Source: Fibrobacter sp. (lineage in GTDB: Bacteria; Fibrobacterota; Fibrobacteria; Fibrobacterales; Fibrobacteraceae). Taken from it: a stretch of 55,759 nt of DNA. Positions 37,379-50,273 of the stretch are shown in pieces (positions within the stretch are counted from its first letter, which is position 1; every line of letters starts with the position of its first letter). A program made the position numbers and the translations under genes. The notes under the pieces are model-generated. The model worked only from the letters and a program-made list of their open reading frames with translations. It searched no databases and was not told where the DNA came from. The stretch is from NCBI GenBank assembly GCA_024399065.1, contig JAKSIB010000023.1:1-55759 (forward strand), written 5' to 3'.

Positions 37379-38017
37379 TTAACCTTCTTCCAAGGCTTCC
37401 TTGTATTCGTCGACGGTAGCGATGTATTCGTCGATCATGTCTTCCTTGGAATCCAGGTAGGCAAGAATCTGTTCCAGGTGTTCCTTCTGGAATACAGCCT
37501 TGAGCTGGCGGGAAGCGTGACCACGGTAGCCCCATTCCTTGAGGATTTCGTCGGTAACAACGAAGGAATCGTTCATGGAGACAAAGCGCATGGGACCATA
37601 GACAGCCCAGTTGTGTTCCATCTGCATGCATTCCGGTTCCTGGAGTTCCGGATTGGCCATGAAGCGCTGGATGTGGCGGGTACGGACGTCCTTGATCTTG
37701 TCGATGCGCATGTAACCCATGATGAGGTACTTGTTGCGCATTTCGGAATCGCTCAAACCTTCGTAGCGGGTACCGAACAAGATGTAGCGGCTCTTGGCCT
37801 TGAGGATGGCGTTCACTGCCTTCACATTGTAGCAGCTCATGAGACCATAGGTGCTGGTTTCATAGTTGGGTTCATAGAGGAAACCCTTGCCATTTTCGTT
37901 CAACTGATCGCGTACAGGCATTTCGGATTGATGGCTAGTTTCAACGTAAAGCAAGCTTCCGGCGGCGTTGCCGCGGTAGTCCTGCCAACCATCAAGATTA
38001 ATCTGAGTTTTTGGCAT
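37379..38017 (-). CDS. Conserved-looking protein of unknown function
   Basis: I do not recognise this 212-residue protein. It is soluble, with no signal peptide or membrane helix, and has an acidic helical C-terminus (KEDMIDEYIATVDEYKEAL). The middle, with SRYILFGTRYEGL and NKYLIMGYMRIDKI, alternates like a small beta-barrel (PUA- or EVE-like), but this is a guess. ATG at 38017 has GGAAAG upstream; a GTG at 38032 would add five residues. It is monocistronic, downstream of heptad array 3 and a hairpin. Codon use is like its neighbours. Confidence 0.65.
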   Translation of the reverse strand: MPKTQINLDGWQDYRGNAAGSLLYVETSHQSEMPVRDQLNENGKGFLYEPNYETSTYGLMSCYNVKAVNAILKAKSRYILFGTRYEGLSDSEMRNKYLIMGYMRIDKIKDVRTRHIQRFMANPELQEPECMQMEHNWAVYGPMRFVSMNDSFVVTDEILKEWGYRGHASRQLKAVFQKEHLEQILAYLDSKEDMIDEYIATVDEYKEALEEG

Positions 38018-38097
38018 TTTTACTTTCCACACAAATAAGTTAAACTTTGACAGCCCCGAACCACCGCCCGGAGTCGTCCCTAGATATAAATGTTACA

Positions 38098-38121: not shown

Positions 38122-38156
38122 GTTTACCATTAAGCAATTTACAATTTACTTACTAA
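38122..38156. repeat. Degenerate heptad repeat array 3 (murI 3' end)
   Basis: Five 7-nt units run from the murI stop codon downstream. Two are identical (AATTTAC) and the others are variants. Confidence 0.7.
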
Positions 38157-38962
38157 AAAGTCAACGACTCTGCGGAAATATCACGCATTCCAAACAAAAA
38201 TGCGCCTTTTTCAAAGAATTTCGCCGTATCCGTGGTCAAAAAACTGGTCTTTCCATTTTTTGTAAGGCGTTCTTCCATCTCCGGATGACGGTTCAGGTAG
38301 TCCACCGTCTTGACGGCAACGATGTCACCCTGGAACACCAGGCGGACGTTTTCGGGCAGGGCCTTGCGGATGGCCCTTTCCAGAAGCGGGTAATGGGTAC
38401 AGGCCAAAAGGATGGTATCGATTTCAGGATCTTCCTTCAACAGGGAGTCCACTTCCTTTTGAACAAAGTAATCCGCGCCGGAGGATTCGGATTCCCCGTA
38501 CTCCACCAACGGCACCCACATGGGGCAGGCATGCTGCGTCACCTTGAGTTCCGGGTAGAAGTGGTTGATTTCAATCAGGTAGCTACCCGACGATACCGTG
38601 CCGGCGGTAGCAAAAATCCCGATGTGGCCGCTCTTGCTGAAAGAGCCGATTTCTTCGGCGGTGGGGCGGATGATACCCAGAACGCGACGGTCCGGATATT
38701 CAAAAGGCAGAACCTGCTGCTGAATACTGCGAAGGGCGCGGGCAGAAGCCGTATTGCAAGCGAGGATCACCAGGGGGCAGCCTCTTGCAAAAAGTTCACG
38801 GACGCACTGCAGCGTGTAGCGGTAAATGGTCTCGTAGCTTCGGGATCCGTAAGGGGCACGAGCGTTATCGCCCAGGTACAGGTAGTCGTACTGGGGCAGG
38901 GACTTCTGCAAGTCCCTCAGAATGGTCATGCCACCGAATCCGGAATCGAAGACGCCAATCAT
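38153..38962 (-). CDS. murI: Glutamate racemase
   Basis: The enzyme makes D-glutamate for peptidoglycan. The 269-residue protein contains the substrate-binding start GVFDSGFGGMT, the GDNARAPYG motif, and both catalytic Cys motifs, ACNTASA and LLACTHYPLL. It starts 3 nt after the stop of the helicase/acyltransferase ORF, so they are in one transcript. The stop codon is the first part of heptad array 3. Confidence 0.95.
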   Translation of the reverse strand: MIGVFDSGFGGMTILRDLQKSLPQYDYLYLGDNARAPYGSRSYETIYRYTLQCVRELFARGCPLVILACNTASARALRSIQQQVLPFEYPDRRVLGIIRPTAEEIGSFSKSGHIGIFATAGTVSSGSYLIEINHFYPELKVTQHACPMWVPLVEYGESESSGADYFVQKEVDSLLKEDPEIDTILLACTHYPLLERAIRKALPENVRLVFQGDIVAVKTVDYLNRHPEMEERLTKNGKTSFLTTDTAKFFEKGAFLFGMRDISAESLTF

Positions 38963-38965
38963 CGA

Positions 38966-41215
38966 CTATGCGCCTTCCTTTGCGGCTACCATTCTTTCAC
39001 GAACCAGGTGGGCCAAGTCATGCTTAGGATCCAGCTTCGGATTTTCAGCCATCAAGGCAGCCACATCCACCGGGTCCAAGATCTTCACGTTCACCTTGAG
39101 GGGCTTGGTATCCTTACGGGCTTCCCAGACAGCGGCGGAACCGGTAATCACCAGCGGCAACAGAATGCCATTGTTTTCGTAGGCGAAACGGAATGCACCG
39201 CTCTTGAAGGAGCCAATCTGGCCATTCTTGCTACGGGTACCTTCAGGGAAAATGAACACGCGGGGCGCAGTGCCACGTTCAGCGATAGCGGCACGGACAC
39301 CAGCGGCGGCACCACCCTTCTGACGGTCCACCAGAATGCAACCGATACGGTGCATCCAGAAATTCAGGAAGGGGATCTTGCCCAGGGACTTCTTGGCCAC
39401 AAAGCCGATGGTCTTCTGGATAGAAAGGAAAACGATGGGAATGTCGGCGAAGGAGCTATGGTTACCCACAACGAAAACCGGACGGTTCCAGTCCACCTTA
39501 CCCAACACAGCCTGATTTTCGATGGTCAAGTCCACGCGGAGCATCTTCATGCAGAAATCCGCAAAGAACTGGATGCGGTCATCCACCCAGGCGTCAAAGC
39601 CCTTTTTGCCGTGGATCAGCAGGCCGAAAGGCACGCGGAGCATCTGGAAGCACATGTAGCCAAGAACGATGAGGCCAACTTTAAGCTTGAAAAGAATCAG
39701 CGGCATATAATATTCCGAATAAGGTTTTTCTTTTGGGAGGAAACGGGACCGGCGGAACTGTCGCAAACTCCCTTTCCAATATCTCTGCTTGCAATATAGC
39801 AAAACCAGAAACGCCTCGGCCCGGGTGACCCCCACATAATACAGCCTTCGTTCCTCATCCAGCTGGCGCTTTCGCTGCTCGCGGGTTCCGGTACATTCCC
39901 CAGGCGTAAGCTTTTCCGCAAGCCCCGCGTAATAGACCACCGCGTACTGGAGGCCTTTCGAGGCGTGTACGGTTTCCACATGGACTCCATTTTCCACCAC
40001 GGCCTCTGCCGACTCGCCAGAGTCAAGCCCCACCTCCCCTATGCTATCGCCAAACACGGGTATGCCATAATCCCGAAGGGCCATTTCATAATAGAGGCGC
40101 TGGCGATTATAGCGGACCAGGATTGCAAAGTTTTTCCATTCCAAGTCGTACCCCAGGCGCAGTTCCTTAATGGAGGAAACCACCTTTACCATCTCCTCCA
40201 CAGGATTATCCGAGGTCCAGACTTCCGGCTTGCGGTTCTCCCGATAGAGCGGATTTCCTCCCGAGCCCTTCGAGTTCCCCGCCCGCAAGGTCTTTCGAAG
40301 ATGTACCGGCTTGTTGGTAAAGATCTTGTTGGCCAGATGAAGAACGTTGGGCACCGAACGGTAATTCCATTCCAGGCGAATTAACGTACTTTGTTTGAAA
40401 TCATCCCGAAAGCGATTGATGTTCCCGATGTCCGCCCCACGGAATCCATAGATGGCCTGGTCATCATCCCCCACTACGAACAACTGCTTTCTATCGCCTA
40501 AAAGATTCTTCACCAGACGATACTGCGTTGGATTGATGTCCTGGTATTCATCCACCAGAATTTCGTGCCACTGTTCCTGAAAAAAATTTCGCGCATCCTC
40601 AAACTTTTCCAGCAAGCGGATGGCCATATAAATCAGGTCCTCGAAAACAACTTGCCCCGATTCCAGAACCTCGTCGCGCAGCGATTCCAGCTTTGCATTC
40701 ACCGAAGATTTATAACCATCGGCAAAAAGATCCTCCCTGGAAATTTTCGTCTTCTTTAATTTCAGCTTGGTCAGCTTTTGCAAGAAATCCTTGCTTGCGC
40801 CATCTGTCGGCACAGGCATCTTCTTGAAACCAAGCAGTTCATAGGCATACACTTCCCGCGACGAACCATTGCGAAGCGGCTTATCCAGCCCCCCAACCGG
40901 GCAACAAGGAATTTTGCTCTTCAACATAAACAGCGCCAGCGAGTGAAACGTGCAAAGCCTTACCCCAGCATTAGGGAACAGCGCCTGAACGCGTTCACGC
41001 ATTTCCGCCGCAGCCTTCGCCGTAAAAGTCAGCGCCAATATTTTCTCGGGTTCCACCCCGCACAAAATCCTGTACTGGATTCGCTTTGTTAGAACCGAAG
41101 TTTTTCCAGAACCGGCTCCTGCCAAAATCAAAAGTTGATAGTCATTTTCGTGGTCATGCAATACAGCAGCCCTCTGGTCCGGATTCAATCCGGCCAAAAT
41201 GCTTTCGGCATCCAT
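38966..41215 (-). CDS. Fusion ORF: compact UvrD/Rep-type helicase joined to a PlsC-type acyltransferase
   Basis: One frame of 749 residues holds two unrelated enzymes. Residues 1 to about 490 are an SF1A helicase: Walker A GAGSGKT (33-39), motif II DEYQD (222-226), VGDDDQAIYGFRGAD, LEWNYRS, motif V VHASKGLQ and motif VI YYVGVTRA. Only about 24 residues separate the IV-like region from motif V, so subdomain 2B is missing. Residues 504-749 are a 1-acyl-glycerol-3-phosphate acyltransferase with NHSSFAD (585-591) and FPEGTRS (656-662), plus an N-terminal membrane helix. The junction, at Met504 (39706), has no stop codon. Either it is a true fusion, or the acyltransferase also starts from its own site there. 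murI follows 3 nt later. Confidence 0.85.
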   Translation of the reverse strand: MDAESILAGLNPDQRAAVLHDHENDYQLLILAGAGSGKTSVLTKRIQYRILCGVEPEKILALTFTAKAAAEMRERVQALFPNAGVRLCTFHSLALFMLKSKIPCCPVGGLDKPLRNGSSREVYAYELLGFKKMPVPTDGASKDFLQKLTKLKLKKTKISREDLFADGYKSSVNAKLESLRDEVLESGQVVFEDLIYMAIRLLEKFEDARNFFQEQWHEILVDEYQDINPTQYRLVKNLLGDRKQLFVVGDDDQAIYGFRGADIGNINRFRDDFKQSTLIRLEWNYRSVPNVLHLANKIFTNKPVHLRKTLRAGNSKGSGGNPLYRENRKPEVWTSDNPVEEMVKVVSSIKELRLGYDLEWKNFAILVRYNRQRLYYEMALRDYGIPVFGDSIGEVGLDSGESAEAVVENGVHVETVHASKGLQYAVVYYAGLAEKLTPGECTGTREQRKRQLDEERRLYYVGVTRAEAFLVLLYCKQRYWKGSLRQFRRSRFLPKEKPYSEYYMPLILFKLKVGLIVLGYMCFQMLRVPFGLLIHGKKGFDAWVDDRIQFFADFCMKMLRVDLTIENQAVLGKVDWNRPVFVVGNHSSFADIPIVFLSIQKTIGFVAKKSLGKIPFLNFWMHRIGCILVDRQKGGAAAGVRAAIAERGTAPRVFIFPEGTRSKNGQIGSFKSGAFRFAYENNGILLPLVITGSAAVWEARKDTKPLKVNVKILDPVDVAALMAENPKLDPKHDLAHLVRERMVAAKEGA

Positions 41216-41254: not shown

Positions 41255-42283
41255 TTACGCGTCCTTACCATTAGCGTCGCTTGCTTCGGCATTAGCCTTG
41301 CCGGAATCAGCCTTGGGGCCATCCAGCAAGAACACAAATGCTCCGAACAAACTAAGAACCAGGCTTACAAAGTAAGCCAACAGCTGGATCACTACAGATT
41401 CCAGGCTTGCAACGCCAGCCCTTGCGAACAAGGACTGAGCCAGCAATTCTCTGGGGCCGAAACCACCAATGGAAATGGGCAGGGCACTGATAATTGCAAC
41501 CAGCGGAATGTAGTAGAAATACCAGGATATAGAAAGGTCTACGCCTACGGCCATACCGCAGAAGTAGTGTACGAAAATTCTCAAGGCCTGCGTCACTGCA
41601 GAAAGGCAGCTAATGCAAATCCACAACTTCAAGGAACGGAACTTCTGGAAGCGGGAGAACATGTGAATCAGGCGGCCGCTAATTTTTTCCGGCAGGAACT
41701 TCGCCATCATGGTGCTGATAAAGTTTCCCAGGCGGCGGCTGAACAAGGAGGCAAACAAGCAGCAGAAAACCACAAAGATCCAGATGGAAGGCCACATGAA
41801 TGCGCGCTGGGCTTCGTCATGGACAAAGAACAGTACGCCCATGGCCAGGGCAAACAACGTAATAAAGAAAAGTCCGAACAAACGATCGAAGAAGGTGGCG
41901 GTAAATCCCGCACCCACGGAATCCTGACCACCCTGCATACGGATGTCGTAAATCTTCTTGGCGTCGCCACCCACATTGCCGGGCATGAAGTTGTTGAAGA
42001 ACAAGCCCACGTGGTAAAGTTTCAGCAAGTGGCCATAGGACAAATGAACGTCCTGCTTTTCCAGCAACAGTTTCCACTGCAGGCAAGCCGTGAAGTTGGA
42101 TGCCGCAAGGCAAAGCAACGCAATGACCAAAGGCAATACGCTCTTGCCTGAGAACAACTGGTACAAGTCATCGATGCTCCAGTCCGGAGCCATCACGATA
42201 TTTCTGTACACGAAGTAGGCGGGAACAATCGTTACCACCAACTTCAAGCAAAATACCAGGAACGACTTCAGTTGCTTATTCAT
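41255..42283 (-). CDS. Lysylphosphatidylglycerol synthase/UPF0104-type integral membrane protein
   Basis: The 342-residue protein has about eight transmembrane helices. FNNFMPGNVGGDAKKIYDI and ISALPISIGGFGPRELLAQ are hallmarks of the flippase-like domain of the LPG-synthase/UPF0104 family. It lacks the soluble aminoacyl transferase part of MprF, so it may move or assist lipid-linked substrates instead. The C-terminal 20 residues are charged and Ala-rich. The ATG at 42283 overlaps the end of the upstream glycosyltransferase by 8 nt, giving translational coupling and suggesting joint work on a glycolipid. The longer start at 42310 is rejected. Confidence 0.85.
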   Translation of the reverse strand: MNKQLKSFLVFCLKLVVTIVPAYFVYRNIVMAPDWSIDDLYQLFSGKSVLPLVIALLCLAASNFTACLQWKLLLEKQDVHLSYGHLLKLYHVGLFFNNFMPGNVGGDAKKIYDIRMQGGQDSVGAGFTATFFDRLFGLFFITLFALAMGVLFFVHDEAQRAFMWPSIWIFVVFCCLFASLFSRRLGNFISTMMAKFLPEKISGRLIHMFSRFQKFRSLKLWICISCLSAVTQALRIFVHYFCGMAVGVDLSISWYFYYIPLVAIISALPISIGGFGPRELLAQSLFARAGVASLESVVIQLLAYFVSLVLSLFGAFVFLLDGPKADSGKANAEASDANGKDA

Positions 42284-43436
42284 CAGCAACCTGTTCCACC
42301 TGATGTTCAATCAGGGCGTCCTGCAAAAGATTCAATGTCAGTTCAGCAGCAGTCTCCCAGCGGAACTCATCGGCATAGGACTTGGCCTCTTCTTCAAGGC
42401 GGGTGCGCAGGTCGTCGTCGCAATAGACGCGGTCCATTTCAAAGGCGCAGGCATCCTTGTCGCCAGCGGGGAACAGCAAACCTGTCTCGCCGTTACGCAC
42501 GCTGTCGCGAAGACCCGGAACATCGCAGGCGATTGTGGTCGTACCAAGCTTTGCGGCTTCCACCACAGTCAGTCCCCAGCCTTCCTTGTAGCTCGTCTGC
42601 AACAAGGCGGTGGCGTTCTTCAAAAGCGCCCGCTTACGTGCGGCAGACACAAAGCCCAGAAGTTCAACGCGGTCCGTAAGGCCTCGTTCTGCAAGCCATG
42701 CAGGAATCTTCTTGAGGAGCGGGCCGTCGCCAGCCACCACCAGCTTCACGTCCTGATGCTGCTTGGCAAATTCTGCAAAACCTTCCAGCGCAGTCCAGAT
42801 GCCCTTGTAACGGTGTACGCGGGACAGCCACAGGAAGTAAGGGCAGTCGATACCTTCGTCTTCCTCGGCAACTGCGGAGCCGGCAGCGTCGGAACCCTCT
42901 GCCACGCAATCGTCGGAGCCATTGTAGATCACGGCCACGCGGTCTTCCTCCACACCGATTTCGCAAAGTTCGCGCTTGGTGCTGGGGCTCACCACAACGA
43001 AGGGTTCCTTGCGGTAGAACAGCGGAATGATTCGTTCAAAGAACCATACCCCGAACGCCACCGGGAAAAACGCCTCGTGGAAAATGGAGCCACGCCACAA
43101 GTGATGCATCTGCACCAGAACAGGTTTCTTCTGCAAGTAGGGAGTAAACAGCGGGAGCTTGTTCAGGTCCTCCACCACTACATCAAAATCAAATTCGCGG
43201 TCTAGCTTGCGGATGTTCGCAGCAACAGTTAACTGGAAAAACAGATCGCCGCCCTTGCGGACAACCTGGATACCGTCCACCACTTCGCGAGGCTTTGCGC
43301 CAGGGAAACTGGTAGTGAACAGAACCACCTGATGGCCCATTTCGGCAATCAGGGAAAAGATTCGGTGTAGATGTTTTTCGGCACCGCCAGCGGCAGGGTG
43401 CAAACGATCTCGATAATTTACGACTAGGATTTTCAA
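42276..43436 (-). CDS. Glycosyltransferase family 4 (GT-B)
   Basis: The 386-residue enzyme transfers a sugar from a nucleotide donor. The N-terminal domain opens with ILVVNYRDRLHPAAGGAEKHLHRI, typical of GT4. The C-terminal domain has LWLSRVHRYKG, VVAGDGPLL and the donor-site SYKEGWGLTVVEAAKLGT (E-x7-E motif). An acidic Gly/Ser/Ala stretch of about 25 residues (NGSDDCVAEGSDAAG onward) between the two domains is longer than usual. The only sensible start is TTG at 43436, which lies within heptad array 4; the usual GT4 start MKILVVN supports it. It is coupled to the following membrane protein and preceded closely by the methyltransferase. Confidence 0.88.
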   Translation of the reverse strand: MKILVVNYRDRLHPAAGGAEKHLHRIFSLIAEMGHQVVLFTTSFPGAKPREVVDGIQVVRKGGDLFFQLTVAANIRKLDREFDFDVVVEDLNKLPLFTPYLQKKPVLVQMHHLWRGSIFHEAFFPVAFGVWFFERIIPLFYRKEPFVVVSPSTKRELCEIGVEEDRVAVIYNGSDDCVAEGSDAAGSAVAEEDEGIDCPYFLWLSRVHRYKGIWTALEGFAEFAKQHQDVKLVVAGDGPLLKKIPAWLAERGLTDRVELLGFVSAARKRALLKNATALLQTSYKEGWGLTVVEAAKLGTTTIACDVPGLRDSVRNGETGLLFPAGDKDACAFEMDRVYCDDDLRTRLEEEAKSYADEFRWETAAELTLNLLQDALIEHQVEQVADE

Positions 43437-45755: not shown

Positions 45756-45907
45756 AGCCAGCCGAGTGCAGCACGAACATTCATGTTCGTATTGCCGAGG
45801 CGCCGCAGTCAAGCGATTTATCGCAATGACAAGCTAGCCGAGTGCTGCACGAACATCCATGTTCGTATTGCCGAGGCGCCGCAGTCAAGCGATTTATCGC
45901 AATGACA
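45745..45907. repeat. Two tandem 76-bp repeats plus a partial third
   Basis: Copies at 45745-45820 and 45821-45896 differ at three positions; a third copy stops after 11 nt. Each contains the hairpin ACGAACAT-N2-ATGTTCGT and the phrase TCGCAATGAC. It fills most of the 264-nt gap before the large secreted-protein gene. Confidence 0.9.
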
Positions 45908-45916
45908 TATGCTGCA

Positions 45917-48900
45917 TTATTTTCTCTTGTGCTTTTTGCGGCGGACGCCCCACTTGTCGAGCACTTCTTCTTCGATCTTTTTCTTCTTGTAGCGGACGAT
46001 CATCTTGAACTGAACATTGTAAACGCCGTTACCGACGAAGCGACCCTTAGAATCCTTGAAGTTCCAGTTCACGAAGACCTTTCTATCAGTATCCAAGCAA
46101 CCCTTCTTGGAGTCGCCGAATCTGAAGTCGGTACAAGGGACAGAGATGATGGTATCGTTCACATACTGGCCAAGGTGATCAGTGAAGTTCACGATGAAGG
46201 AAATGTTCACGTCTTCCGGCTTCAAGGAGTCGAGAGCAGACGGATCGTAGGAACCATCGGCAGCGACCTGAGCGCGGTCAAGCAACTGCGGCACGAAGCG
46301 CTGGCCCAACTGAACCAGGTGACCCAAGGCGCCCTGCTTTTCCATGTCTTCCTTGGTGGTAGAACTGGGCATGTAGCGGAGGTTCACGGAGCTTACAGTC
46401 TTGAGAGCGTAACTGGTGTCAGCGTCTTCAATAACATCGTTGGCATCGTAGGAACCCATGTTGGTGGATTCAACCAAGTGATCCAGCAGACCGCCGATAA
46501 CCACAGGCTGAGTTCTTTCACCGGCAACGTTGCCACAAGTATCCTTGATGTTGTCCTTCTTACCATGCTTAATCAGGAGGGAGTCACCCGGAAGGATGGT
46601 GTTCTCAGAACCGTCAAGCACCAGCTTTACGGAGAAGCCATCGTTAATCCAATCCATTCCCACAGGTTCCAAGTCAATGGTATCCTTGCCGTGGATGAAG
46701 GCGAAGAAGTCGTCGCCCTTCAGCTTCTTCCAGTTAATGGGTTCGGAGAAGTTGACCACCAGGGTGTCGTTCTTCTTGCCATAGCTCAAGGTTGCACCAG
46801 AGACAACAGGAGCCATCTTGTCCACCTGCTTTGCGTTAGCTTCGCTGATGAAGGTTTCGCCAAAGATGGAGTAGTAGGTATGTGCGGTAGCCTGCGGCAA
46901 GTCGTCGCTAATGCTGGTCACACCAGTGGGCAGCTTGCTGAGGGTAGATGCCGGAATATCCCAGATAACGCGATTCGGATTCTTGGGATCCACATCCAGG
47001 CTATAGGGGTATGCCTGCAGGTAAGTCAGCTTACCGTTGTTGCTGTACCACGGCAAAGTGAGGTACAAGGTATTGTCGATATCTTCGGCAGTAAGGCTAC
47101 CGTCGAACACGGCAACGATCTTGTCAAGCTTGCCATCGTCATCGGAGTCCCAGTATTCCACATTCAGGATAGACGGGAAACGGTCAACCACATCCACCGG
47201 CACTTCGCGGAGGTATTCGTCGGAAGTCACGTACTGGAGGTTTCTGAAGGTCTTGTTTTCGAACAGGGAAACGCTATCCTTCCAGATACTATCCTTCAGG
47301 CTGCCTTCCAGCTTGTAGTCCTTGGCCACGAGTATCACGATGTCCTTGGTGGGCATATAGACCTTCTTGACCTGGTCAAGCTTCAGGGCGCAAAGGCTTG
47401 CGGCGGAGTCATAGGAATCCTTGCCACGGCAAACAGTTTCCTTGAACAGCACCAGCATTTCAGGCTCGGAGAGGTCTGCAGGAACAAGGTCCACATTGGG
47501 GTTGAACTGCAGGAACAGGGAGTCGAGACCGTTGGTGTCGCGGATGGCGTAAGCCTTCTTGATGATATAGCTACCAGCTTCAAGGAGAGCTGCTTCACGG
47601 ACATAGGTCATGGTCTTGGGAGAGCCATCTTCCTTAGTTCCTCTCACATACTTGTAAGTCACCAGAACCGTAGCGTCCTTCGGGAATTCACCTGCGAGAG
47701 GCAACTTGTCCAGATCGCCAACATGAACAAGGATTCGATCCCTGGACTTGTTCACAGACATGCTGTCCTTGTTGCAGACCAGCGTATCGCCGTTCACCAC
47801 CAGGCGAACCTGTTCCACGATGGCATTGGAATCCAGAGCCTCTTCGAGAAGGACTTCTGCGTAATCCAAGGTATTGTCACCATCGGAATCCTTGATGTAA
47901 CCCACGCGGAGGTTAGGAGTCGGATCCACGAAGTTGATGTTGTCGATAATGACCACATTGTTGTTACCGTAGATCTTGACGGAACCGCCCTGCACAGCTT
48001 CGTCGGCAGTCACGAGGATGGTGACGCTACCGTCGGTATTCTTGATAAAGGTGGTTTCGTGCTTGGAACCGTCGGTCGGGTCAACAATTTCAACATTGCT
48101 GGTACCCACCAGTTTCAAGGAGTCGATGGGGCCAAAGTATTCATTGACCTTATCAGGATCCAAGGTGATAGCCACGATATCGCCCACGGTTGCATGGTCG
48201 AAACCAGAATTGTAGTGGAAGTCCAACATGTCAGCAGGATCGGTGCTGGGCAGGTAGGAGTTGCCACCAATGACAATTACGTTAGGATCCGGGTTGCTGG
48301 GATCGGTAGGAACGAGAATGGTTGCATCGCCAACAATGGTATCACCCTTTTCGAAGGCGTCTGCAGACGGATAGGCGTCATAGCCGTCGTCATCGTCGTA
48401 ATCTTCATCGTCGGCACCGTAGTAGAGGTTCTGGGAGCTGGAGGAAGCACCTTCATCGTCGCCGTCGCCATCGTTACCCTTGGAGCTGGAAGACGGGCCT
48501 TCGTCATCGCCGTCACCGTCGTCGCCCTTGGAGCTACTGCTGTCATCGTCGGAGCCAGAGCTACCCGGATTTTCGCCAGAGGAGCTGCTGCCATTGGAGC
48601 CGGAGCTACCCGGGTTTTCACCGGAGGAGCTGCTGTTGGAACCGGAGCTGCCCGGATTTTCGCCGGAGGAGCTGCTGTTGGAGCCGGAGCTACCCGGATT
48701 TTCGCCGGAGGAGCTGCTGTTGGAACCGGAGCTGCCCGGATTTTCGCCGGAGGAACTGCTGTTGGAGTCGGAGCTACCCGGCTTGCCGCTGGAGCTGGAA
48801 GTCTTGTTGCTGCTGGAGCTGCTCTTGGGAGCGGAGCTGCTGGAAGACTTTTCGAATTCAACCAGGGAGGAGCTGCTTCCTGCTCGGCTGCTGGAAGAAA

Positions 48901-50242
48901 CTTCTTCGTCCTTACCCACGGTACCGCCGGTGCGGTCCACACCCACACCTACGAGAGGTGCCAAGTCGTCAAGGTAGGCATCAATCCACTGCACGTGCAC
49001 GAGCACGTTGTTATCGATACGCTTTTCTTCGTTACCGGCGAAGTCCACAAAAATCATGTGGCCGGTATTACTTGCAACGAACAAATGTCCAAGGCCATCG
49101 GTAGTACCCTGGTCAAGGCGCCAACCGCCCACACCGCTGGTCTTGTTCTGGCCATTGAAACCATCGTCGTTAAAGAAGTATTCACGGAGGTCGATGGAAG
49201 CCACCACCTTCGGGTTGAACTTCTTGTTAACGTCATAGGGGGCGATCTGCACAATCTTGGAGCCACCGAATACGAAAATCGTTCCGGAGTACTTATCGAA
49301 GGTACCGCCATGGGCGCCTTCAAGAGAGTCGATCAACACTACCTTGGTCAAACTCGTAATAACTGTTTCACCAATGGAGCCGCCAAGGGTGTCCCTGTTT
49401 TTTGCAGTAACAACTCGGGTCACGGTATCCTTGAAAGTACCGAAATAGGAATTGGCACGCTTTCTTTTTCTAGTAGCTGCGTCACAGCCACTGCCTTCAC
49501 AACCGCCACCATAGTAGTCGGAGCGGGTAAAGTAGGCCCTGCCATAGTCGTCCCAGATAAGGGTTGCCACAAGGGAGTCGTCGCCACGTCGATTGGGGTC
49601 CGGCTTAACCTTCACCTGATAACCGGTACTAGCAAAGCCGTCCTTATTGTTGGCCACACCCTTGCTGTCCACACCCATGTCGGTGGAGAAGCGGAAGAGC
49701 TTACCCGGAATACCGGCAGCCCAGAGCCACTTCTGTTCCGGAGCCCAGTCCATCATCAAGTGCCAGAAACCGCCCAGCTGAACCTTGGGGTAGGAAGTCT
49801 TCACAAGGCACTTCTGACCTTCTTCGGTAACCTTACGCACCATGTGGATACGTTCGCCCTGGCCGGCAATCAGCAAGTGCTTGCCATCCGGATGGTGAAC
49901 GATACCGTCGGCACCTTCGATGCCGCCCATGTTACCCATGGGCTTTCTGTCGCTGTTCTGATAGCAAAGAGTCTTACGGTCACCCGGCTTCATCAGCAGG
50001 TAACCAGCACCGTTATAGTTATAACTGATGCTCTTCACACGGTCGCCTTCCTTGTCGTATTCGTACTTGGTATAGTACAAGGTAGCCCTGGAAGGGTCCT
50101 GAGGCTCGATTTCGCCGACCTGCTGAATCCAAATACCGTTTGCCGGATTGGACGGTTCACCGTATTCTTCGGATGCAGCCATGGCGTGCATTGCAGCCAT
50201 AAGCAATGTGGAGATAGAAACAATTTTAGTTATCGTTTTCAT
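45917..50242 (-). CDS. Very large secreted protein with propeller-like N-terminus, Ser-rich repeats and Ca-binding loops
   Basis: This is a 1441-residue protein with a signal peptide (about 1-22). Residues about 23-430 contain repeated WAPEQKWLW/GHLFVASNTGH-type blades, probably a beta-propeller. Residues about 440-640 are a disordered Ser/Gly linker with five copies of a 14-residue unit containing SSSSGENPGSSG, then an Asp-rich stretch. The rest is beta-sandwich modules with Ca-loop motifs DSDGDNTLD and DSDDDGKLD and an SbsA-like Ig region (VVNFSEPI). The C-terminal module (WNFKDSKGRFVGNGVY) is FlgD-Ig-like and ends in a strongly basic tail. It follows the 921-residue paralogue by 31 nt, with GAGGG before its ATG. 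A surface adhesin or sheath component is possible; I do not know its function. Confidence 0.8.
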   Translation of the reverse strand: MKTITKIVSISTLLMAAMHAMAASEEYGEPSNPANGIWIQQVGEIEPQDPSRATLYYTKYEYDKEGDRVKSISYNYNGAGYLLMKPGDRKTLCYQNSDRKPMGNMGGIEGADGIVHHPDGKHLLIAGQGERIHMVRKVTEEGQKCLVKTSYPKVQLGGFWHLMMDWAPEQKWLWAAGIPGKLFRFSTDMGVDSKGVANNKDGFASTGYQVKVKPDPNRRGDDSLVATLIWDDYGRAYFTRSDYYGGGCEGSGCDAATRKRKRANSYFGTFKDTVTRVVTAKNRDTLGGSIGETVITSLTKVVLIDSLEGAHGGTFDKYSGTIFVFGGSKIVQIAPYDVNKKFNPKVVASIDLREYFFNDDGFNGQNKTSGVGGWRLDQGTTDGLGHLFVASNTGHMIFVDFAGNEEKRIDNNVLVHVQWIDAYLDDLAPLVGVGVDRTGGTVGKDEEVSSSSRAGSSSSLVEFEKSSSSSAPKSSSSSNKTSSSSGKPGSSDSNSSSSGENPGSSGSNSSSSGENPGSSGSNSSSSGENPGSSGSNSSSSGENPGSSGSNGSSSSGENPGSSGSDDDSSSSKGDDGDGDDEGPSSSSKGNDGDGDDEGASSSSQNLYYGADDEDYDDDDGYDAYPSADAFEKGDTIVGDATILVPTDPSNPDPNVIVIGGNSYLPSTDPADMLDFHYNSGFDHATVGDIVAITLDPDKVNEYFGPIDSLKLVGTSNVEIVDPTDGSKHETTFIKNTDGSVTILVTADEAVQGGSVKIYGNNNVVIIDNINFVDPTPNLRVGYIKDSDGDNTLDYAEVLLEEALDSNAIVEQVRLVVNGDTLVCNKDSMSVNKSRDRILVHVGDLDKLPLAGEFPKDATVLVTYKYVRGTKEDGSPKTMTYVREAALLEAGSYIIKKAYAIRDTNGLDSLFLQFNPNVDLVPADLSEPEMLVLFKETVCRGKDSYDSAASLCALKLDQVKKVYMPTKDIVILVAKDYKLEGSLKDSIWKDSVSLFENKTFRNLQYVTSDEYLREVPVDVVDRFPSILNVEYWDSDDDGKLDKIVAVFDGSLTAEDIDNTLYLTLPWYSNNGKLTYLQAYPYSLDVDPKNPNRVIWDIPASTLSKLPTGVTSISDDLPQATAHTYYSIFGETFISEANAKQVDKMAPVVSGATLSYGKKNDTLVVNFSEPINWKKLKGDDFFAFIHGKDTIDLEPVGMDWINDGFSVKLVLDGSENTILPGDSLLIKHGKKDNIKDTCGNVAGERTQPVVIGGLLDHLVESTNMGSYDANDVIEDADTSYALKTVSSVNLRYMPSSTTKEDMEKQGALGHLVQLGQRFVPQLLDRAQVAADGSYDPSALDSLKPEDVNISFIVNFTDHLGQYVNDTIISVPCTDFRFGDSKKGCLDTDRKVFVNWNFKDSKGRFVGNGVYNVQFKMIVRYKKKKIEEEVLDKWGVRRKKHKRK
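48558..48790 (-). repeat. 42-bp coding tandem repeats in the Ser-rich linker
   Basis: About five nearly identical 42-bp units encode SSSSGENPGSSGSN. One unit carries an extra Gly-Ser codon pair. They form the flexible linker of the 1441-residue protein. Confidence 0.85.
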
Positions 50243-50273
50243 CTTACTACCCTCTGAAAGTCTCTACGACAAG

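Follow-up and report, generated by a model that had tools for sequence, protein, structure and literature searches.

One frame, probably two products: a helicase–PlsC fusion gene conserved across the Fibrobacteraceae

Why should a DNA helicase and a phospholipid acyltransferase share a reading frame, and does that frame make one protein, two, or both? The question is raised by a locus in the window, by which we mean the whole 55,759-nt stretch of DNA that was analysed, from Fibrobacter sp., a gut bacterium. The earlier note had described an uninterrupted frame with both enzymes. It is indeed there, and we add that it lies on the minus strand: 749 codons run stop-free from the ATG at 41215 to the stop codon at 38968-38966, and the plus strand across 38966-41215 contains stops. 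Pfam places UvrD-helicase at residues 10-274 (1.5e-64), UvrD_C up to residue 477 (4e-27) and Acyltransferase/PlsC at 577-690 (7e-22). The motifs quoted for the two halves, GAGSGKT, YYVGVTRA, NHSSFAD and FPEGTRS, are all found. The AlphaFold2 model of the fusion (32-sequence alignment, mean pLDDT 85.1) corresponds to PcrA over residues 1-497 and to full-length T. maritima PlsC over 501-749; thus two complete proteins stand end to end. The methionine reported at their junction is Met504, with its ATG at 39706-39704. The parts of the frame are as follows.

38966..41215, minus strand: helicase–PlsC fusion ORF, 749 aa; single frame conserved in the family
39734..41215, minus strand: SF1A (UvrD/PcrA/Rep-like) helicase part, codons 1-494, without 2B subdomain; Pfam, alignments, model
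39707..39733, minus strand: variable linker, codons 495-503; stop-free in frame in all 66 family sequences
38966..39706, minus strand: PlsC (1-acyl-glycerol-3-phosphate acyltransferase-like) part, 246 aa, codons 504-749 plus stop; Pfam, motifs, model

The helicase half has the Walker A motif, the DExx box and the remaining SF1A motifs, all of them conserved; GAGSGKT, VDEYQD, GDDDQAIYGFRGAD and VGVTRA are invariant among the sampled genus sequences. Its model matches PcrA 1pjr with Z 32.8 and 1uaa with Z 31.1. The helicase half shares the core motifs and the fold with UvrD, PcrA and Rep and would be predicted to translocate 3'-5' or unwind in an ATP-dependent manner. However, unlike these helicases, it is fused to PlsC and lacks the 2B subdomain. 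No counterpart of PcrA 378-543 or Rep 369-540 is present in the helicase part: the alignments pass directly from residue 377 to residue 544 of PcrA and from 368 to 541 of Rep, and at residues 392-405 the model shows only a low-confidence loop. We thus regard it as a 2B-less relative rather than PcrA, UvrD or Rep proper; NCBIfam equivalog cut-offs are not reached either. In Rep, deletion of 2B activates monomers (PMC13238157), and by analogy the Fibrobacter helicase may work as a monomer. In six Fibrobacter genomes (G006, G019, G020, G129, G132 and G147; loci L058, L059 and L060) the helicase of the fusion is longer by tens of residues, inserted in frame near residues 104-123.

The PlsC half scores 78.1 bits against PF01553, whose gathering cut-off is 23. 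N585, H586, D591 and F656-R661, that is, the HX4D and FPEGTR motifs, are invariant in the sampled genus sequences. In the predicted model, residues 501-749 align with 5kym_A 1-241 (Z 25.0, rmsd 2.7, 233 of 241 residues), and the fold of T. maritima PlsC is recovered including its N-terminal membrane helices. Like that enzyme, the Fibrobacter PlsC has HX4D (as NHSSFAD), FPEGTR and the full-length fold; unlike it, it carries a helicase at its N-terminus and has its start inside a longer ORF. The NCBIfam AGP_acyltrn score is 87.0, under the cut-off of 102.95. The enzyme may transfer an acyl group to lysophosphatidic acid. T. maritima PlsC is a membrane-bound enzyme. As the same genome encodes additional UvrD-type helicases and has at least two more acyltransferase-like ORFs, either activity may have a source besides the fusion.

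Is the joined frame real? The sequence comes from one draft assembly of 118 contigs, and an error in sequencing or assembly, or the recent loss of a stop codon in this genome alone, could produce such an ORF. The comparison of related genomes that the earlier note had proposed was made on 168 Fibrobacterota genomes: 80 of the genus, those of the other genera of the family, and 57 outside the family. The two domains share one fused frame in 80/80 Fibrobacter genomes, which excludes chance or assembly error, and in 28/28 assessable genomes of other Fibrobacteraceae genera, each checked individually, with identity down to ~48%. Two apparently non-fused cases (G163 and G156) are contigs that end inside the helicase and were left out as not assessable, and one family genome (G158) gave no strong match to the fusion. 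Close named relatives are Fibrobacter sp. from horse faeces (84-94% identity). Close relatives with two separate genes, named in the earlier note as evidence that would speak against a fusion, were not found inside the family Fibrobacteraceae. With the same frame in 108 family genomes, an error or an event confined to this genome is ruled out.

Outside the family the picture changes. In none of the 57 other Fibrobacterota genomes was the fused frame seen; the helicase stands alone there, with ~500-550 aa. In one genus of the same class (g5; G044-G049, L040-L045) helicase and plsC are separate neighbours in the same order and on the same strand, and the helicase stop and the plsC start share an overlap of ~4 nt (ATGA/GTGA), which is the arrangement of translational coupling. 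The Fibrobacter fusion joins the same two genes in that order and orientation, but as one frame instead of two overlapping ones. The g5 pair is likely the ancestral state, with an independent origin of this pair as another possibility. Loss of a stop codon between two genes, one of the origins considered earlier, thus fails as a recent event, since the fusion is family-wide and selected; it holds only as an ancient origin, to which the g5 overlap points. A 902-aa frame of the sister family f2 (L038) was considered as another fusion and rejected: the helicase start lies inside the frame, no Pfam domain precedes it and no plsC adjoins it. A literature search returned nothing on helicase–phospholipid acyltransferase fusions.

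Is the joined protein itself maintained? Between SRFL, the last conserved helicase residues, and the PlsC start lie 10-25 codons that vary in sequence and length and yet are always in frame; the indels among them are all frame-preserving. Across 66 family sequences, stop codons take up 0/759 in-frame linker codons, compared with 30/693 and 35/693 in the other two frames (65/1386 together). Fisher's test gives 3.7e-13, and 1.7e-10 on the 46 sequences with <90% identity; this thinning and the tree simulation that follows take relatedness into account, which the shuffles, Fisher tests and Mann-Whitney test otherwise ignore. When neutral evolution of the linker is simulated on the genus tree, the probability of seeing no stop is ~0 at the full 4-fold rate, 0.003 at half, 0.04 at a quarter and 0.2 at a tenth of it, and at the full rate ~14 of 37 tips are expected to carry a linker stop. 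Because the linker is so free to vary and still lacks in-frame stops, we suggest that the fused product is under selection; these counts are most simply read as selection against a linker stop and hence in favour of the joined protein. The locus might instead be two genes in effect, where the whole function rests with a separately expressed PlsC and the helicase lacks its stop by neutral accident. The conserved internal start signals described below and the separate genes of g5 would fit this. However, a neutral linker should have acquired stops in several lineages, and neither the simulated tips nor the strictly in-frame indels agree with neutrality. We consider this explanation very unlikely and retain selection for the joined protein.

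A second question is whether the PlsC half also begins on its own. Two further features bear on this.

39704..39706, minus strand: internal start codon (Met504), nested plsC start; start codon within one codon of this position in 66/66
39792..39806, minus strand: promoter-like GGTTTTGCTATATTG with an extended -10 (TG 39801-39800, TATATT 39798-39793); synonymous conservation, motif enrichment

Codon 504, or the codon after it, is ATG, GTG or TTG in all 66 family sequences. Eight of them lack ATG at column 504; five have GTG or TTG there, and three have a start codon one codon later. In the control, the other Met columns, just 7/44 non-ATG codons are GTG or TTG. Within the genus (35 ATG, 1 TTG, 1 GTG) the codon evidence is weak, as changes from ATG to Leu or Val codons reach TTG or GTG in one step; a genus-only test of Met504 was set aside for this reason in favour of the family data and the control columns.

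The initiation signals agree with a start at this codon. The Shine-Dalgarno duplex energy averages -5.1 kcal/mol at the nested start vs -2.2 kcal/mol at 593 other internal ATGs (p 2e-13), although by this mean the nested start ranks 32nd of 698 ORF positions and several others are equally strong. The signal is strong outside Fibrobacter, where the mean is -6.4 and 96% of sequences are at or below -4 (the ORF's own start: -5.4), and weak inside the genus, with a mean of -3.6. In the window the value is -3.5, and a weak Shine-Dalgarno-like GGAA lies in the linker at 39713-39716 (minus strand). Different residues encode the Shine-Dalgarno sequence in different genera, for example KG and PE. The most AT3-rich and rare-codon windows of the ORF cluster around codons 496-512, and the least-structured 42-nt RNA windows are found mostly at codons 503-513 (ranks 1-3 of 714). 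An internal start, the third alternative of the earlier note, is thus supported by both the conserved start codon and the initiation signals.

Genes within genes are known from bacterial in-frame N-terminal proteoform pairs such as infB, clpB, mrcB and cheA (PMC11005335). The Fibrobacter locus resembles them in having one frame with a second in-frame start and a predicted shorter C-terminal product. Unlike in those pairs, the shorter protein would itself be a complete enzyme from a different pathway and would probably have its own promoter, and the arrangement apparently arose when two coupled genes were joined.

The candidate for this promoter is GGTTTTGCTATATTG, located ~87 nt upstream of the internal ATG inside helicase codons. 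Synonymous conservation in the ORF peaks at codons 470-475 (TT-TTN-YTA-TAT-TG), where it is 5.5 SD over the mean and higher than at the ORF's own start. The TTTTNYTATATT element, with its TATATT, is kept in 64/66 family sequences; codon 474 is TAT and never TAC where it encodes Tyr, and the rare Leu codon YTA is retained at 473. TTT.YTATATT occurs 11 times in 380 kb of Fibrobacter genome, 9 of them in non-coding DNA, although only 7% is non-coding, and 8 of these 9 precede a start on the same strand, with a median distance of 33 nt. TGNTATATT is ~40-fold commoner upstream of genes than in coding sequence. An extended -10 promoter is the simplest reading that this motif enrichment suggests for TTTTNYTATATT. 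The element may alternatively act in the nucleic acid in some other way, for example in mRNA processing, in pausing or in the binding of a protein: at the candidate promoter no -35 box was recognised, and T.YTATATTG is not strongly enriched upstream of genes (3/10 non-coding). We find this less convincing than a promoter, though worth keeping in mind, as it accounts poorly for the concentration of TTT.YTATATT near starts and the upstream bias of TGNTATATT.

We note that in 380 kb of the Fibrobacter genome G003 (L087-L105) TATATT, not TATAAT, is enriched close upstream of genes (75/201 non-coding vs 21/137). This suggests that the Fibrobacter -10 box may differ from the E. coli consensus. A canonical TTGACA/TATAAT promoter was considered and dropped, since, unlike TATATT, it is not enriched upstream of Fibrobacter genes. 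A literature search on Fibrobacter promoters gave nothing relevant.

Taken together, the frame and the linker support the bifunctional protein, another of the alternatives put forward before, and it does not exclude the internal start; both together are the best reading. The gene would probably yield two products, a selected helicase–PlsC fusion and a free 246-aa PlsC made from internal signals. It seems unlikely to us that the locus is purely bifunctional, with the 749-aa fusion as its sole product and with a start codon, a Shine-Dalgarno sequence and a -10-like element that are relics or side effects of constraint on the protein. Under that view selection on frame and linker would be expected as well, a conserved MPxxxF[KR] motif includes Met504, and the Shine-Dalgarno signal is weak in Fibrobacter. 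However, relics would decay over such divergence, whereas the codon choices at 473 and 474 have been kept, the start codon persists as GTG or TTG or shifted by one codon, and the Shine-Dalgarno sequence is preserved through different amino acids.

For the two-product gene we propose the following course. The starting point would be ancient overlapping, translationally coupled genes for a 2B-less UvrD-like helicase and plsC. In the ancestor of the Fibrobacteraceae the two would have merged into one frame, which selection has since retained, and the expression signals of plsC would not have been lost but now lie within the fused ORF. The first product would be the 749-aa helicase–PlsC, with the PlsC half possibly also catalytically active. 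As PlsC is membrane-bound in T. maritima, the helicase is probably tethered to the membrane by analogy, and the N-terminal helices of PlsC should anchor it to the inner face of the cytoplasmic membrane. The second product would be the free PlsC starting at Met504, expressed from TTTTNYTATATT as an extended -10 promoter inside the ORF, by ribosomes that start internally on the long mRNA, or by both routes. Acyltransferase supply would thereby be decoupled from helicase supply. The production of both products, the promoter role of the element and both enzyme activities are predictions from sequence and model. More tentatively, the fusion may hold a 2B-less, constitutively active helicase at the membrane and link the synthesis of lipids with the processing of DNA or the chromosome; the free enzyme would then come from the nested plsC, which keeps a promoter and a start of its own.

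A helicase–phospholipid acyltransferase fusion would physically attach a DNA motor to an enzyme of membrane-lipid synthesis. The locus looks as if coupled genes merged their frames while the downstream promoter, ribosome-binding site and start stayed under selection inside the new ORF, which offers a testable case of a gene fusion gained with no loss of the independent product. If true, it is a naturally occurring gene of the "fusion plus released domain" kind. It also warns that annotation by ORFs may overlook a lipid-synthesis gene product throughout a bacterial family.

The immediate neighbours of the fusion are also on the minus strand.

38153..38962, minus strand: murI (glutamate racemase-like), 3 nt downstream of the fusion; Pfam, synteny
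41255..42310, minus strand: LPG_synthase_TM-family membrane protein, upstream of the fusion; Pfam, synteny

murI adjoins the fusion in every genus locus whose contig extends that far. The order methyltransferase/glycosyltransferase, LPG_synthase_TM, fusion, murI is conserved across the genus with small variations, which places the fusion among envelope genes. Outside the family, g5 shares just the helicase–plsC pair. A 217-aa protein at 37379-38032 (minus strand) has no Pfam match, yet its identity across Fibrobacter is 88-100%; the sigma factor aside, no neighbour of the locus is better conserved. Farther off in the window, open frames of ~1450 aa each face one another on opposite strands, at 45842-50257 (plus) and 45917-50242 (minus). 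The minus frame has Ser-rich SSSSGENPGSSGSN repeats and no Pfam match, and the plus frame is probably spurious.
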